Positions 2,877 to 33,384 of a stretch of 39,403 bases of DNA are shown here, in pieces. This DNA comes from Clostridia bacterium (lineage in GTDB: Bacteria; Bacillota; Clostridia; UBA1212). Position numbers and translations under genes: made by a program. The notes beneath the pieces are model-generated. The model searched no databases. It saw nothing but the letters and a program-made list of their open reading frames with translations, and was not told the DNA's origin. The DNA lies in assembly GCA_017848335.1 (NCBI GenBank), contig JAGDAX010000169.1:1-39403 (forward strand). Reading direction: 5' to 3'. Positions within the stretch are counted from its first letter, which is position 1. The number at the start of each line of letters is the position of its first letter.

Positions 2877-2965
2877 TGGCGGAAGCGGTGGGATTCGAAC
2901 CCACGATACGTTGCCGTATACCTGATTTCGAGTCAGGGCCGTTATGACCACTTCGATACGCTTCC
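2877..2965 (-). tRNA. tRNA-Ser with anticodon CGA
   Basis: Read on the minus strand, the 7-bp acceptor stem GGAAGCG/CGCTTCC is complete. The discriminator base is G and an encoded CCA lies at 2877-2879. The anticodon loop CTCGAAA gives anticodon CGA, which reads the serine codon UCG. A long variable arm (TATACGGCAACGTATC region) marks it as a class II tRNA, as expected for serine. The T arm contains GGTTCGAATCC. The 3' end faces the AT-rich accessory genes at 1-2778, so the gene could be an integration site. Confidence 0.95.
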
Positions 2966-3591: not shown

Positions 3592-3625
3592 CAAAATATG
3601 AATTGTGCGTAAGCGGAGTGAATTC

Positions 3626-4870
3626 ATGGAAAGTTTTATTACACAGCGAAAAGGTGAAAACAGTATAACGATCAAGGCGAAAAATGACTCGGGTGAATTC
3701 GTATCGACCGGGGATTTTCGCGTTGAGAAGGTCCGGTTCTGCTCACGTTACGTCGATATGCTGCTTTGCTGCGGTATTGAGACGAAGCCTTATGCCAGAC
3801 GCAAAGGACTTGTGGGCAGGATGCTTTCAATGGGCGAGGCATTCGGACGTTCGCGCGGCGCTGTGTTTTCCGTTCTGCACCCTTTTTCATTCTCGTTTTA
3901 CAGAAAATACGGATATGAACGCGTCAGCGATACCCTCATTATTTCATTCCCGATAAGAGCGCTCGATTTTGTTCCTTACTGCAATGATCTGAGGCCGCTG
4001 ACGGCTGAGATGGTGCCTCGTTTCCGCGAATATTACGACAGCTTCAACGAAAAAAGGAATCTTATGTTCGGGCTGCCGGAGGATTATAAGGCGCCGGGCA
4101 ATATGTACGTTTTGACGGACGGCGGGGAAATACGGGGGCACGTTCTTGTAGACAATCCCAAAACCTTTGACGGGGTCAATAAAATGAACGGCGACGGTCT
4201 GACCGTTCGCGAGATGGGCTTTGCGGATCCCAGGAGTCTCGGGCGCATTCTCGGGTTTTTGAGAATGTTTGAATCAGAGCAGCCAAGGGTTATTATTAAG
4301 GACGCGGGGCCTTTGCCGGAGGTCGATACGTACCTCAAGCATTATATGGATACGTCCTACGTTTTGAGGCCCGACATAATGGCAAAGGTGCTGGACTCGG
4401 AGAAGGCGCTGCGGCTGGTTCGATATCGCAAAGCCTCGGGAAACCTTAATGCTTTGGGAAACCTTAACGTCTCGGGAAACCTAAACGCTTCGGGAAACCT
4501 TAACGTCTCGGGAAACCTAAACGCTTCGGGAACCCCTGACGCTTCGGGGGCAAAATGCGATTCGGGGACATTCACGGTCAGGATAAATTCCGCGGAGCCC
4601 GAGGTCGGCGGAACGTTTCAGATAATTCCGGACGCCGACAGCCCTGCTGTGACCCGGCTCTGCAAAGCGGACGAAGCGCACGGTGCGGACGGGACGGCGA
4701 ACCACGATATTGAGGTATCTGCGCAGGCATTGTCGCGTCTTGTTTTCGGATGCGACAGCTACACAGCGGAGACGGCGGCATATCTTCCCGGCGTTGTGTT
4801 AAGCGAGACCTCGCAGAAGGTGCTTGACGCGTTCCCAAAGCAGATCAACGGCAATTTTTACCATTTTTGA
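3626..4870 (+). CDS. Eis-like GNAT N-acetyltransferase with SCP2-like C-terminal domain
   Basis: This 414-residue protein matches the Eis-type layout of two GNAT halves followed by a sterol-carrier-like domain. The acetyl-CoA loop is YARRKGLVGRM, near residues 56-66, and the following YRKYGYERV is the usual GNAT beta-strand end. Residues 330-410 (FTVRINSAEPEVGGTF, then LSRLVFGCDS) fit the SCP2-like part. The protein ends in Phe. In mycobacterial Eis the C-terminal Phe carboxylate takes part in catalysis, so the matching end is suggestive. A hexapeptide linker (G-N-L-N-A/V-S repeats, residues about 271-309) separates the two parts and is encoded by an 18-bp tandem repeat. The start is the ATG at 3626, with GGAG at 3614-3617. 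The acceptor amine (an antibiotic, peptide or metabolite) cannot be told. Confidence 0.82.
   Translation: MESFITQRKGENSITIKAKNDSGEFVSTGDFRVEKVRFCSRYVDMLLCCGIETKPYARRKGLVGRMLSMGEAFGRSRGAVFSVLHPFSFSFYRKYGYERVSDTLIISFPIRALDFVPYCNDLRPLTAEMVPRFREYYDSFNEKRNLMFGLPEDYKAPGNMYVLTDGGEIRGHVLVDNPKTFDGVNKMNGDGLTVREMGFADPRSLGRILGFLRMFESEQPRVIIKDAGPLPEVDTYLKHYMDTSYVLRPDIMAKVLDSEKALRLVRYRKASGNLNALGNLNVSGNLNASGNLNVSGNLNASGTPDASGAKCDSGTFTVRINSAEPEVGGTFQIIPDADSPAVTRLCKADEAHGADGTANHDIEVSAQALSRLVFGCDSYTAETAAYLPGVVLSETSQKVLDAFPKQINGNFYHF
4436..4549 (+). repeat. intragenic 18-bp tandem repeat in the acetyltransferase gene
   Basis: Unit starts (TCGGGAAACC-type) fall exactly at 4436, 4454, 4472, 4490, 4508, 4526 and 4544. 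The encoded residues alternate Ala and Val, showing a 36-bp dimer that was itself duplicated. The period is a multiple of three, so the reading frame is kept. Confidence 0.95.
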
Positions 4871-4926: not shown

Positions 4927-7900
4927 ATGGATATATTTGACAAGCTTAATGACAAACAGCGCGAAGCTGTTATGGCGACGGAAGGGTACGTGCGCGTCAT
5001 CGCGGGCGCCGGCAGCGGCAAGACCAAGCTTCTGGTGAGCCGTTACGCATACCTTGTCACGGAGTACGGTATTGACCCCGCCAATATTCTCTGCGTCACG
5101 TTTACAAATAAAGCGGCAGGGGAGATGAAGCGACGCATCAGGGCCCTGATCGGGCCTGAGTACGATACTACGCTGATCTGCACTTTTCACGGCTTTTGCG
5201 CCAGGCTGCTGCGGGAGAATCCTGAGAAGATATTCTTCAGCAAGGGCTTCCAGATAATCGACCAGTCGCAGCAGAAGCAGATCATGGAGGAGATCTACCA
5301 GAAGCACGAGCTGAAGCTGGATCACGCCAGCTTTGAGATGATGCTCAAGAAGCTTGGCGCGTTCAAGTTCACGCCGGAGTACGTGCCCCGGTTCATCAGT
5401 TCCGACACCGTCCCCATTATGAGGGATATCTTGAATTTTGACGACGTTCTGATGGAGGAATTCCTGCAGCGGCAGAAGGCTATTTATGCGCTGGATTTTG
5501 ACGACCTGATGAACTTCGCGATTTACCTGCTGGAAAATGACGCCGAGATCCGCGAGAAATGGCAGACGCGCCTTAATTACATTCAGGTGGATGAATTTCA
5601 GGACAGCTCACGCTGCGAGATGCAGCTCATAAACCTCCTTTCGGACAGGTACAAAAATCTGATGATCGTGGGCGACCCTGACCAGAATATTTACGAGTGG
5701 CGCGGGTCGGAGATTGCTCTTCTCGTGGATTTCGACAAGACGCACGTGCCAACCACGACCATCCTTTTGACGCAGAATTACCGCTCGACGCCGCAGATCC
5801 TGAAGTGCGCAAATAATCTTATCGAGAAGAACGAGCTTCGCATAAAAAAAGACCTTTTTACCAACGCGAAGCCTGGCGCCGACGTCATTCATTATCACTC
5901 AAAGAGCGACGAGCTCGAGACGGACAAAATGGTGGAGACCATTAAAAAACTCACTAAAAAGGAGGGCTTCAGTTACTCGGACTGTGCGGTTCTGTACAGA
6001 TCCGGCTTTCTCTCGCGCATTATCGAGAAGAAGCTCACGGAGTCAAACGTTCCGTACGAGATTTTCGGAGGCGTCAGGTTCTTTCAGCGCATGGAGATCG
6101 TGGACTTGGTGTCGTATCTCAGGCTTGTAGAGTACGGCGACGACATTTCCTTCAGGCGCGTTGTAAACAGACCGGCAAGGCGTTTCGGCAGGGCGAGAAT
6201 GGCCTTCCTGGAGGAGTCCCGCGAGAATTATTCCGCAAGCTGCGAGGGCAGCAGCGAGATCACGCTTTACGAGATGCTGAAGCTTTGCATGGACAGCAAG
6301 GTCATCAGGTCAAGCGGCGTTCTGCCGTTCATCAACGCGATCGATTCCATCAGGAAGGACGTGCCGGACCTTCGCATTTCCGAGATCGTAAACCGCGTAT
6401 GCGTTGATACCGGCTATGAGAAATATATCAGAGAGCTGGGCGACGAGGAGAGGCTGGAAAACCTGGCTGAATTTAAGCGTATTGCGAGCGAGTTTGAGTC
6501 CGGCTTCGGCGAGAATATATCCCTGCGCACCTTCCTGCAGCAGGTGGCTCTACAGTCGGGCGAGGACAGGGACCAGCCCCGCGACGCCGTGAAGCTTATG
6601 ACGATCCACGCGTCCAAAGGCCTGGAGTTTCCGGTGGTTTTCATTGTCGGGCTCTCGGAAAGCATTTTCCCGTCCTCCAAGACGATCGAGGAGCGCAAAA
6701 AGCTGGGCCTCGAGGAGGAGCGGCGGCTTTGCTACGTGGCGATTACGCGCGCCATGAAGCGGCTGTTTCTTATGGATTCGGAGGGCTTTACCGAGAAGGG
6801 GTCGAAAAAGCTGCCTTCAAGGTTCCTTGAGGAGATCGGCACCGACAATTACGTCCGCGTCGGCAAGATTCCGCAGGAGCTTCTGCTGGCCGCCAAGGGG
6901 CAGACGATGCGTTCCGACAAGGCAGCCGCCGGGGATTTCGCTTTTAAGATCGGGGACGAGGTCAATCACCACGTTTTCGGCAGGGGAGTGGTGGAGGCTC
7001 TGGACACGAAGCGGGGCAGCTATATCATTAAGTTCGACAGGCTTCCCATGACGCGCAATATTTCGGGGGCGTATTTTCAGAGCGAGCACAGGCTCCCGGA
7101 GGATGCCGGAAATTCTGAGAGTCCCGCGAATGCCGGGAATGACGTGAGCACCGCAAGTCCCGTGGATCCGGCAGAGGGAGGCCGTGATGCTTCCTGCGAA
7201 ATTGATCCTGCAGGACTTCATTCCGGAGCTCCGGATCATTCCGAAAAGAAGCCCGCCGCGATATATGATTACCTTTTGGAGGATGAGGACGGTTTGCCTG
7301 ATGCCGGCAAGCCCGGCGGCACTCCCTTTTTGACGCCTCCTTTTTCGCCTCCTTTGTCACCTCCTTCGAATTCTTCTTTGGGGCAACTCCGGGGAATGCC
7401 TGATTTTACGCCGACTGTTGCGGTTCCGCCCGTTCAGGGTCAGCCTTCCGCGAAGGCCTCGAAAGCGTCGCAGATTGCCGCGCCCGGGCCTGAAGCAAAT
7501 CAGGGCAGGGTCGTTTCGCCTGAGCTTCAAAAGCAGCTTGAAGAGTCCGACAATCTATGGAAAAGGGATGACGTTCCCCATACCGGCTGGGTGTGCACAG
7601 GTATTTCTGACCTTGGAGAGCCTGCCGCCGTTTGCCAGATGTGCGGGTATCAGATAATCAGATACGTTCATCACATGCAACATCCGGACTTCAGGCCGCT
7701 TAACGTGGGCTGTCACTGCGCAGGTAAAATGGAGGGCGATCCCGAGGCCGCCCAAAAGAGGGAACAGGATTTCAAAAACAGGCAGCAGCGCCTCGACAAT
7801 TTCATGAACCGCAAATGGAAGCAGTCGCGGAACGGGAACGATTACCTTAAAATCAAGGATCATTTGATCGTGCTTTACAAGGTCAGCGGCCTCGAGAAGT

Positions 7901-8004
7901 ACAAGTATTCTCTTGACGGTGTTTTCTGCGCGGGCTACTTTAATGCGCGCGAGGATGCGGTCAGAGCTGCCTTCGAGGCTCTCGAAAAGATACCCGGCAG
8001 CTGA
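4927..8004 (+). CDS. UvrD/PcrA-family superfamily 1 DNA helicase with C-terminal cysteine domain fusion
   Basis: This 1025-residue ATP-dependent 3'-5' DNA helicase carries all SF1A motifs: Walker A AGAGSGKT (26-33), VDEFQDS (221-227), GDPDQNIYEWRG, QNYRST, TIHASKGLEF (559-568) and EERRLCYVAITRA. A Tudor-like segment typical of PcrA C-termini (IGDEVNHHVFGRGVV) starts near residue 675. Residues about 720-870 are low-complexity and rich in Pro, Ala and Ser. Residues 875-1025 form an extra domain with GWVCTG, CQMCGYQIIRYVHHM and VGCHCAGKM, whose Cys and His could bind zinc, followed by a basic helical stretch and a small terminal fold. PcrA usually ends near residue 730-750, so this tail is an addition. 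The role is presumably repair or replication restart. GGAG lies about 11 nt before the ATG, and the gene follows the acetyltransferase by 56 bp. The stop codon lies inside the first unit of a tandem repeat. Confidence 0.93.
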   Translation: MDIFDKLNDKQREAVMATEGYVRVIAGAGSGKTKLLVSRYAYLVTEYGIDPANILCVTFTNKAAGEMKRRIRALIGPEYDTTLICTFHGFCARLLRENPEKIFFSKGFQIIDQSQQKQIMEEIYQKHELKLDHASFEMMLKKLGAFKFTPEYVPRFISSDTVPIMRDILNFDDVLMEEFLQRQKAIYALDFDDLMNFAIYLLENDAEIREKWQTRLNYIQVDEFQDSSRCEMQLINLLSDRYKNLMIVGDPDQNIYEWRGSEIALLVDFDKTHVPTTTILLTQNYRSTPQILKCANNLIEKNELRIKKDLFTNAKPGADVIHYHSKSDELETDKMVETIKKLTKKEGFSYSDCAVLYRSGFLSRIIEKKLTESNVPYEIFGGVRFFQRMEIVDLVSYLRLVEYGDDISFRRVVNRPARRFGRARMAFLEESRENYSASCEGSSEITLYEMLKLCMDSKVIRSSGVLPFINAIDSIRKDVPDLRISEIVNRVCVDTGYEKYIRELGDEERLENLAEFKRIASEFESGFGENISLRTFLQQVALQSGEDRDQPRDAVKLMTIHASKGLEFPVVFIVGLSESIFPSSKTIEERKKLGLEEERRLCYVAITRAMKRLFLMDSEGFTEKGSKKLPSRFLEEIGTDNYVRVGKIPQELLLAAKGQTMRSDKAAAGDFAFKIGDEVNHHVFGRGVVEALDTKRGSYIIKFDRLPMTRNISGAYFQSEHRLPEDAGNSESPANAGNDVSTASPVDPAEGGRDASCEIDPAGLHSGAPDHSEKKPAAIYDYLLEDEDGLPDAGKPGGTPFLTPPFSPPLSPPSNSSLGQLRGMPDFTPTVAVPPVQGQPSAKASKASQIAAPGPEANQGRVVSPELQKQLEESDNLWKRDDVPHTGWVCTGISDLGEPAAVCQMCGYQIIRYVHHMQHPDFRPLNVGCHCAGKMEGDPEAAQKREQDFKNRQQRLDNFMNRKWKQSRNGNDYLKIKDHLIVLYKVSGLEKYKYSLDGVFCAGYFNAREDAVRAAFEALEKIPGS

Positions 8005-8094
8005 TCCGGGCATCTTCGGCTGATCCGGGCGCCTTTGGCTGATCCGGGCATATTCGGCTGATCCGGGCATATTCGGCTGATTCGGGCGCCTTTG
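8000..8094 (+). repeat. 19-bp tandem repeat starting at the helicase stop codon
   Basis: Units begin with GCTGATCCGGGC at 8000, 8019, 8038, 8057 and 8076 (the last has GCTGATTCGGGC). The first unit contains the helicase TGA stop (8002-8004). The unit tails alternate between CATNTTCG and GCCTTTG. The period is not a multiple of three, so the array is not coding. Confidence 0.95.
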
Positions 8095-9382: not shown

Positions 9383-9519
9383 CTTTTGCGGTGATTTTTC
9401 TGACCTTTGGGTTGGCTGTTTCTGGCTTTTCGGCGATCCAGCTGGCTTTTCGTCGATCCAGATTACTTTTCGTCGATCCAGCTGGCTTTTCGGCGATCCA
9501 GCTGACTTTTACAGTGATT
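9380..9519 (+). repeat. 20-bp tandem repeat after the RpiB-like gene
   Basis: Exact 20-bp units start at 9421, 9441, 9461, 9481 and 9501 (consensus CTGGCTTTTCGGCGATCCAG). The last unit (GCTGACTTTTACAGTGATTT) closely resembles the sequence over the gene's own stop, CTGACTTTTGCGGTGATTTT, at 9379-9398. This ties the array to the gene end. Confidence 0.92.
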
Positions 9520-9541: not shown

Positions 9542-10012
9542 ATGGATGGTGAATTCAGGATGCCAGGCGTGCCTGCGGTGCCCGTCAAGGCGTTGAAGCT
9601 GAAGGAGGCGGCTGTTGTGCCGGCCTACGGTACGGATTATTCCGCGGGAGCCGATTTGTATTCGGGAGAAGACGATATAACGATCATCGCGCCGGGCACC
9701 ACCGTGCTTGTGCATACAGGTATCGTGCTGGAGATTCCGGAGGGCCTTTGCGGGCTGATTTTTGCCAGGTCAGGGCTTGCTACAAAGCAGGATCTGGCGC
9801 CTGCGAATATGGTGGGAGTCATTGACAGCGATTATCGCGGCGAGATCATGGTTGCGCTCAAAAATTACGGCCGCGAGGTTCGATTCGTAAAGCCCGGCGA
9901 CCGTATTGCGCAGATTGTTTTCGTGCCCTATTTTAAGGGCATTTTTGAGATTGCCGATGAGCTATCGGACACGGAAAGGGGCGCCGGCGGATTTGGTTCG
10001 ACCGGGAAGTGA
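9542..10012 (+). CDS. dut: dUTP diphosphatase (trimeric dUTPase)
   Basis: The enzyme hydrolyses dUTP to dUMP and diphosphate, keeping uracil out of DNA and supplying dUMP for dTMP synthesis. All five dUTPase motifs are present: AGADLYS (I), ARSGLA (II), GVIDSDYRGEI (III, with the catalytic Asp), GDRIAQIVF (IV) and RGAGGFGSTG (V). The length of 156 residues is normal. The start is uncertain: the ATG at 9542 has no clear ribosome binding site, while the in-frame ATG at 9560 has GGTGA about 8 nt upstream. No good promoter is visible, because the upstream stretch is the 20-bp repeat array. The 3' end of the coding sequence is itself the first unit of a 31-bp repeat. Confidence 0.95.
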   Translation: MDGEFRMPGVPAVPVKALKLKEAAVVPAYGTDYSAGADLYSGEDDITIIAPGTTVLVHTGIVLEIPEGLCGLIFARSGLATKQDLAPANMVGVIDSDYRGEIMVALKNYGREVRFVKPGDRIAQIVFVPYFKGIFEIADELSDTERGAGGFGSTGK

Positions 10013-10083
10013 GCAGGGCGGCTTTGTCCTGACCGGGAAGTGAGCAGGGCGGCTTTGTCCTGACCGGGAAGTGAGCAGGGCGG
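10000..10083 (+). repeat. 31-bp tandem repeat made from the dut 3' end
   Basis: Units start with GACCGGGAAGTGAGCAGGGC at 10000, 10031 and 10062, and the third is cut after 22 bp. The first unit contains the last codons and TGA of dut, so the gene end was copied downstream. Confidence 0.96.
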
Positions 10084-21451: not shown

Positions 21452-21854
21452 GGCGGAGTTGTGAAACGCGTGTTTTTTGGCCTTTGTTAATTGAACGTGA
21501 GTTTGGAACGTGAGAACCGGGACGTGAGTTTTCGGACGTGAGTTTTGGGACGTGAGTTTTTGGATCTAAGACGCGGTTTAAGCGTTATCCTTTTGCAACG
21601 CATCTTAAAGCGTTTAGCGTTCAATTGTACGTTCTTTGGTTTTGAGATCATGGGTATTTAAATATGAAGAAAAGCGCCTTTTTGTGCGGTGTTATTCCGT
21701 CATTATTTGCTTATTATTGTTCTATTGAAGCCGCCACGCAAATTCGGTTTATTTATCAAGATATATCACGCAGATTATCTCTGCGTTGAGAAAACATATA
21801 GCTGTTTTGACAGTAGTTAGCTCACAAATAAATGCAATCCAGGAGGTGCACTAT
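21452..21854 (+). other. proA to ABC exporter intergenic region
   Basis: After the repeat array the stretch turns AT-rich (from about 21600). It holds a small stem at 21770-21786 (CGCAGA/TCTGCG) but no gene and no promoter that I would call. The change in composition marks the edge of the exporter insertion. Confidence 0.6.
21493..21561 (+). repeat. 14-bp tandem repeat after proA
   Basis: GGACGTGAG/GAACGTGAG units start at 21493, 21506, 21520, 21534 and 21548, spaced 13, 14, 14 and 14 bp. The unit resembles the proA stop sequence GGACCTGAG (21445-21453), with TGA in the same place. Confidence 0.9.
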
Positions 21855-23788: not shown

Positions 23789-23915
23789 GGGAAATCATGG
23801 GAAATCATGGGAAATCATGAGAACTCAAGGGAAATCATGGCAAATCCCGGGGAAATCATGGGAAATTCCGTGGAAATCCCGGGATTTGCGGGGACTTGCG
23901 GGAGATCACTGTTCC
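23789..23915 (-). repeat. 10-bp tandem repeat after the P-loop kinase gene
   Basis: On the minus strand the kinase stop reads TGATCTCCCG, followed by about eleven degenerate 10-bp units ending in repeated TGATTTCCCA. On the plus strand these are GGGAAATCAT units at 23789-23880. Units near the gene are diverged and distal ones are nearly identical. Confidence 0.92.
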
Positions 23916-33293: not shown

Positions 33294-33384
33294 TTGGGAC
33301 TCGAGCTATGGGACTGGAGTTATGGGACTGGAGTTATGGACTGTGCGCTATGGGATGTGAGTTATGGGATTCGGGTTGTGAGTT
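33294..33384. repeat. 14-bp tandem repeat in a divergent promoter region
   Basis: ATGGGACTGGAGTT-type units start at 33294, 33308, 33322, 33336, 33350 and 33364, with an exact 14-bp period. Unlike most arrays in the window it does not adjoin a stop codon. Confidence 0.92.

Follow-up and report, generated by a model that had tools for sequence, protein, structure and literature searches.

A divergent PcrA-type helicase of Clostridia fused to a cysteine- and histidine-bearing domain that also occurs alone beside defence genes of plasmids and phages

The open reading frame (ORF) at positions 4927–8004 of the window (by which we mean the whole stretch of 39,403 nucleotides analysed here, a contig from a gut Clostridia bacterium) encodes a helicase that continues, behind a long linker, into a domain with conspicuous cysteine and histidine residues. 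Such an arrangement raises the question of what this domain does at the end of a helicase, and whether the protein is the repair helicase PcrA, as had been assumed from the sequence. Our analysis shows the tail domain to be a member of an unnamed family with a strong link to defence islands, and the fusion to be a new architecture of a known kind of helicase.

Architecture of the fused protein and fold of its tail domain

The predicted helicase fusion stood: the four motifs quoted for the tail (CTG at residues 890–892, CQMCG at 903–907, RYVHHM at 912–917 and VGCHCAGKM at 927–935) are all in place, and the coordinates fit to the base. The gene comprises the following features:

4927-8004, plus strand: ORF of 1025 aa, helicase fused to the Cys/His tail domain
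4927..6870, plus strand: SF1A helicase motor, UvrD N and C domains (residues 1-648), with all motifs
5002, plus strand: helicase motif AGAGSGKT (residue 26)
5590, plus strand: helicase motif DEFQD (residue 222)
5671, plus strand: helicase motif GDPDQ (residue 249)
5776, plus strand: helicase motif NYRS (residue 284)
6601, plus strand: helicase motif TIHASKGLEF (residue 559)
6736, plus strand: helicase motif VAITRA (residue 604)
6931..7092, plus strand: PcrA-like Tudor segment (residues 669-722), KIGDEVNHHVFGRGVV...YIIKF, likeness judged by eye
7093..7539, plus strand: linker (residues 723-871), rich in Pro, Ala and Ser, with few hydrophobic residues
7540-8001 (stop codon to 8004), plus strand: whole tail domain (residues 872-1025, 154 aa)
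7540..7815, plus strand: Cys/His half of the tail domain (residues 872-963), with a treble-clef-like order of strands and helix
7816..8001, plus strand: beta3-alpha half of the tail domain (residues 964-1025), lost or truncated in two fused relatives (L027, L029)

With matches to both UvrD domains of Pfam (PF00580 UvrD-helicase, 240 bits; PF13361 UvrD_C, 215 bits) and with intact motifs, whose key residues are unchanged across 18 fused homologues, the protein belongs to the UvrD/PcrA-type SF1A superfamily. The alignment to the PcrA profile TIGR01073 spans residues 5–693, and homology to UvrD/PcrA stops at about residue 693. The Tudor-like segment, in which G676, V679, H681, F684, G685, G687 and F703 are invariant in the 18 fused helicases, has a KIGDEVNHHVFGRGVV pattern that resembles, by eye and with no profile match, the C-terminus of the PcrA encoded elsewhere in the same genome. 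The linker, predicted to be flexible and about 150 residues long, indeed comprises 149 aa (16% Pro, 12% Ala, 11% Ser, 18% hydrophobic); its length varies widely among the fused relatives and its sequence varies too, and the tail domain is retained at much the same length. Matches of the ORF to DUF5347 (E 0.01) and PRK08116 (E 0.06) lie below the cut-off and were attributed to chance.

The tail domain carries the pattern C903-x2-C906, R912, H915, M917, H919, C929-x-C931, together with C890 and W888. Among 56 diverged copies of the domain R912, M917, C931, W888, P884, G887 and G928 are invariant, and C890 (54/56), C903, C906, H915 and H919 (55/56 each) and C929 (52/56) are nearly so; R945 and E946 are also conserved. 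The window's tail aligns with this family over its full length, matching the C-x2-C, R-x2-H-x-M-x-H and G-C-x-C elements and the helix that follows, and is scored at 216 bits by the family HMM, a model that itself includes the window sequence. AlphaFold2, run on the whole tail domain with a 56-row alignment, gave a confident fold (pLDDT 96.3, pTM 0.82), as expected for a separate domain, and the Cys/His half modelled alone retained the same secondary structure (pLDDT 92.8, pTM 0.80). The predicted order of elements is strands, a CxxC knuckle, an R-Y-V-H-x-M-x-H hairpin, a CxC that starts a helix, and then a long helix. The Cys/His ligands are spaced as is usual in zinc sites, and they and the structural elements follow an order resembling a treble clef (with no solved relative matched), from which we infer that the Cys/His half may bind zinc in a treble-clef-like site.

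Database searches found no family for the tail domain in Pfam, NCBIfam, PADLOC or the PDB, and sequence searches of the PDB gave no match with either the single sequence or a profile. Foldseek with the whole tail domain returned nothing from the PDB and BFVD at E 0.001, and with the Cys/His half alone the best scores against solved structures were E 3.9 (Foldseek) and Z 2.4 (VIA). The best VIA-align hit of the whole domain, MmoD (Z 6.0), covers only the last 56 residues, and AP2, DUF1508 and dsRBD domains align with the same end at Z 3.9–4.8; this beta3-alpha unit is a common small arrangement, found in many unrelated proteins. A search of PHROGs gave stray matches only, and neither the domain nor the fusion is described in the literature searched, in which subscription journals were mostly absent.

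A rare paralogue of PcrA

The original prediction named the helicase PcrA, and this part of it has to be corrected: the window helicase is a divergent PcrA paralogue, not PcrA itself. The genome encodes a second, more typical PcrA at C119, which is 37% identical to the window helicase and scores 776.7 bits against TIGR01073, compared with 575.8 bits for the window helicase (both under 911, the curated cut-off). A tree of 58 helicases places the fused proteins in a single clade (support 100/98) whose stem measures 1.15 changes per site; the genome's own PcrA groups with its genus, apart from them. UvrD-type matches to the window helicase were found in 37 of 38 genomes of relatives, and in most of these the best one was the housekeeping-type PcrA at 35–40% identity. 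The window type is present in just three other genomes of the 38, each time with the tail (70–71% identity in two, 45–51% in the third, where it is fragmented), and no tail-less orthologue was found among the 38. Two further identities were tried and rejected: profiles of Gabija GajB give 339 bits for the window helicase versus 389 for the own PcrA, so they are non-diagnostic, and no GajA turned up beside the gene or in the 79%-complete genome; RTasHel (PADLOC, DRT), at 345 versus 402 bits, is equally non-diagnostic.

A scan of 84,980 species genomes revealed 29 more loci that encode the tail domain, with 44–71% identity. Since in all 29 a helicase of the same kind ends in it (in L009 with one intervening stop codon), the tail is not a chance appendage. 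The two relatives without an intact C-terminal end have lost about 60 residues or have them truncated, and keep the Cys/His half; overall, conservation of the tail equals that of the motor. Among genomes drawn from the class, the order and the genus, 9 of 391, 3 of 31 and 1 of 6 gave a hit with the domain profile, and the fused helicase occurs in about 2% of Clostridia genomes. A tail common in clostridial PcrA proteins was not encountered; a housekeeping PcrA with such a tail is rejected, as the genome encodes PcrA at another place and the clade of fused helicases is both separate and rare.

The neighbours of the window helicase are a GNAT acetyltransferase gene (3605–4870) and rplS. In five congeners rplS is preceded upstream by two other genes (DUF1385-like and prmC-like, assigned by eye), in whose place the window has the helicase and GNAT genes, and the DUF1385-like gene lies on a separate contig (C20) of the window genome. 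From these different genes upstream of rplS we conclude that the helicase lies in an inserted or rearranged segment. Across the 29 Clostridia loci neither conserved neighbours nor clear adjoining defence genes were found for the fused genes, whose neighbours are mostly housekeeping genes, and no OLD/GajA (PF20469) protein was detected in the window genome, which is 79% complete.

Some other features of these surroundings deserve mention. A metallophosphoesterase-like gene adjoins or is near the fused helicase in 3 of the 29 loci (L004, L008, L010). In the window, a tRNA-Ser (CGA) gene (2877–2965, minus strand) is located about 2 kb before the helicase gene, and short tandem repeats with units of 10–31 bp in 3–8 copies lie between genes or at their ends (arrays at 8000–8087, 9422–9510, 10000–10083, 21495–21564, 23789–23878 and 33295–33377), the one at 8000–8087 starting at the helicase stop codon. 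The GNAT gene contains an in-frame 18/36-bp tandem repeat (4435–4548) that encodes repeated SGNLNAS/V units.

The free-standing form and its genomic company

The suspicion that the domain also occurs alone proved correct. Using tblastn we found free-standing relatives of about 160–200 aa, with 32–54% identity, on 48 plasmids (from Rhizobium, Agrobacterium, Aeromonas, Rhodobacterales and one E. coli IncC plasmid) and in 4 phages; others are present on 41 viral contigs and in one other Clostridia genome (L095/L142). Across about 50 free-standing relatives identity spans 30–54%. The free-standing copies tested have no Pfam or PADLOC family, one tested has no NCBIfam, and the copy on the E. coli plasmid has no DNA match in RefSeq complete E. 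coli genomes. A phylogeny of 82 copies of the domain has the fused ones together on the same side of one branch (support 72/80, present in 74% of the bootstrap trees), and their nearest relatives include standalone copies from Firmicutes phages and Clostridia; a single fusion event is likely on the basis of this phylogeny. In one copy on a viral contig (L083, 4989–5447), with GajA alongside, the CxxC is gone and so is the first Cys of the CxC, which indicates that the putative metal site can decay.

Recognizable defence genes lie within 5–6 kb of the domain gene in 13 of the 17 plasmid regions read, corresponding to about eight lineages once near copies are merged; among the other four, L101/L102 are unassigned, L105 is without annotation and L106 holds a distant relative without defence genes. 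The following were found in the company of the free-standing gene:

Gabija, with the UvrD helicase GajB, plasmids: L035, L036, L037, L038, L107
CBASS (patatin, DncV-like cyclase, ThiF), plasmids: L097, L098, L099, L104
CBASS cyclase, plasmid: L108
BREX-1, plasmid: L103
OLD, plasmid: L034
RmrA-like protein and N6 methylase, plasmid: L100
Gabija, viral contig: L064 (GajB 585 bits, GajA 704 bits)
GajA and restriction-modification genes, viral contig: L083
SIR2-pAgo, viral contig: L067 (1251 bits)
HmaA, viral contig: L087 (2022 bits)
AbiJ, viral contig: L055
GmrSD-like HEC-05 gene after the domain gene, Clostridia copy: L142
WYL-WGR-domain cassette, plasmids: L034:3919-5465 (OLD), L035:2955-4494 (Gabija), L103:3925-5468 (BREX)

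The domain and GajA occur together on 12 plasmid records versus 0.04 expected (from 72,556 plasmid records, 61 with this kind of GajA and 45 with the domain), and with the co-occurrence collapsed to three independent lineages P is about 8e-6. A small control of 100 kb from two of the domain plasmids, judged by annotation words, contained no annotated defence system. The free-standing plasmid copies form clustered lineages, and part of the free-standing copies reside in plain phage early regions without a defence gene.

Regulatory genes recur in the same regions. On three Rhodobacterales plasmids the WYL-WGR-domain cassette, next to SbcCD genes, is constant and the payload differs, as if the site served for swapping defence payloads. 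A WYL gene is adjacent to the free-standing domain gene in L108, L079, L087, L063 and L075, and an XRE-IrrE or IrrE gene is directly upstream of it in L066, L100, L101 and L102. The closely related free-standing copies of L067 and L083 (regions L067:5791–8868 and L083:5523–7547) both have DNA methyltransferase genes nearby and, upstream, a gene of about 142 aa from cluster c52, and differ in payload (SIR2-Argonaute in L067 versus GajA in L083).

In phage contexts a motor gene often stands next to the domain, a descriptive observation, phage early regions being rich in such genes:

UvrD, next gene to the domain: L080
primase-helicase AAA_25/PriCT-2: L062
AAA_25: L054
ResIII helicase: L052
VapE: L033, L047
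SNF2/DUF927: L082

As the small protein is encoded repeatedly beside motors and is fused to one in a single clade, it most likely acts on the motor, in its recruitment, loading, processivity or licensing.

Proposed role and comparison with known systems

The explanation that we favour, tentatively and at nearly even chances, from sequence comparison and modelling, is that the product is an accessory SF1A helicase of patchy distribution that carries, on a tether, a metal-binding module for recognition in conflicts with mobile DNA. The Cys/His half would bind zinc and, together with the beta3-alpha half, recognize either a partner protein or some DNA structure; thanks to the flexible linker the module would search while the motor waits, and would then recruit, load or license the helicase on certain DNA, most likely foreign or damaged molecules encountered in conflict with a phage or plasmid. 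Where it stands alone, the small protein could do the same job in trans for GajB, phage UvrD, primase-helicase, VapE or SNF2 proteins, a partnership that in Clostridia would have been fused into one polypeptide, and the Tudor-like segment may also keep the helicase near RNA polymerase, as in PcrA. The single architecture of the 29 further loci, the separate clade, the near-invariant set of C, H, R, M and W residues, the defence and helicase neighbours of the free-standing form and the patchy distribution argue for this explanation; the fused genes without conserved or defence neighbours, the genome without OLD/GajA, the free-standing copies in plain phage early regions, the clustering of the plasmid lineages and the small size of the neighbourhood control argue against it. 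The small protein's association with very different effectors, some of them (CBASS) lacking a helicase, would fit a regulator equally well. An anti-phage function of the fused gene is plausible on the indirect grounds of neighbourhood and distribution, and the kinship and company of the domain suggest that helicases engaged in the conflict of bacteria with mobile DNA have a new accessory part.

The main rival regards the free-standing protein as a regulator or signal sensor of defence islands that acts with WYL or XRE-IrrE proteins and that, when fused, gates the motor on the same signal without binding DNA. It draws on the WYL-WGR-domain order that stays constant with an OLD, Gabija or BREX payload, on the adjacent WYL genes at five loci and on the XRE-IrrE or IrrE genes directly upstream at four. 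Nevertheless, we consider it unlikely: it offers no obvious reason for the fusion to a helicase or for the place after a phage primase-helicase, no HTH is recognized in the tail domain, and at several loci (Aeromonas, L067, L083, phages) no such regulator adjoins.

Alternatively, the protein could be an ordinary helicase associated with DNA repair or transcription, whose extra protein-interaction tail was recruited once from phage DNA and which now has no defence role; it keeps the Tudor-like segment, the Tudor domain of PcrA binds RNA polymerase (PMC8318588), housekeeping genes make up most of its neighbourhood and the fusion looks like a single event. This seems improbable, however, for the genome already has PcrA, the fused gene, unlike repair genes, is missing from most close relatives, and the tail, which matches the motor in conservation, has its kin concentrated in defence islands. 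It is very improbable that the domain is a small treble-clef nuclease of HNH or endonuclease VII type, which would make the protein a helicase-nuclease: pairs of this kind are common in defence, R945 and E946 are conserved, and CxxC...CxC with a hairpin that bears H915 and H919 and leads into a helix is reminiscent of zinc-containing His-Me finger nucleases, but there is no HNH-family match in Pfam and no nuclease in the PDB searches, and the helix after CxC (A-G-x-M-E/S) has no conserved Asn, His or Asp.

Returning to the recognition module that we prefer, a broader version would make it a general metal-binding sensor or adaptor of bacterial immunity, common to Gabija, CBASS, BREX, OLD, SIR2-Argonaute and further systems, and the fusion a one-gene helicase against mobile DNA, directed to the invader; we regard this as possible, though rather doubtful. 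Small unannotated proteins beside many unrelated defence systems have in the past been a source of shared sensors and regulators, such as WYL factors and CapP/CapH. As the domain has no entry in Pfam, NCBIfam or PADLOC, it is missed by annotation pipelines and defence finders. The fusion provides a testable guess at the job of the free-standing form, namely that it works on or with a helicase, and a second PcrA-like gene in a Clostridia genome should not be annotated as the repair helicase.

Compared with PcrA/UvrD (TIGR01073; the genome's own copy), the window helicase shares the SF1A motor, the helicase motifs and the Tudor-like C-terminal segment, but has about 300 extra residues (linker and Cys/His domain) and is rare and patchy. 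GajB of Gabija, which is reported to sense DNA ends and drive GajA (summarized in PMC10952713), is a UvrD-type helicase too, and several lineages have the free-standing domain gene next to GajA/GajB; the window gene, by contrast, has no adjoining GajA, and its genome no OLD-TOPRIM protein. The WYL regulators BrxR and CapW (PMC9122589, PMC9122588) accompany the same array of defence systems and are frequent neighbours of the free-standing domain gene, but they are transcription factors, and the tail domain is neither WYL nor HTH by Pfam. Zinc finger 1 of PARP-1, a sensor of DNA breaks, aligns with the Cys/His half at VIA-align Z 2.2 (noise level about 2) over 62 residues with an rmsd of 5.1 A; there is no sequence match between the two, a WGR-domain gene is found next to the free-standing form in three plasmids, and we treat the likeness as a lead only. 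HelP (PMC3542172), a small protein encoded by the mobile elements ICEBs1/Tn916, stimulates PcrA/UvrD and works in trans in conjugation, whereas the tail domain has a Cys/His cluster and is fused, with no sequence link found between them; the working idea is nonetheless the same, and HelP is a precedent for a small accessory protein of mobile DNA acting on PcrA-type helicases.
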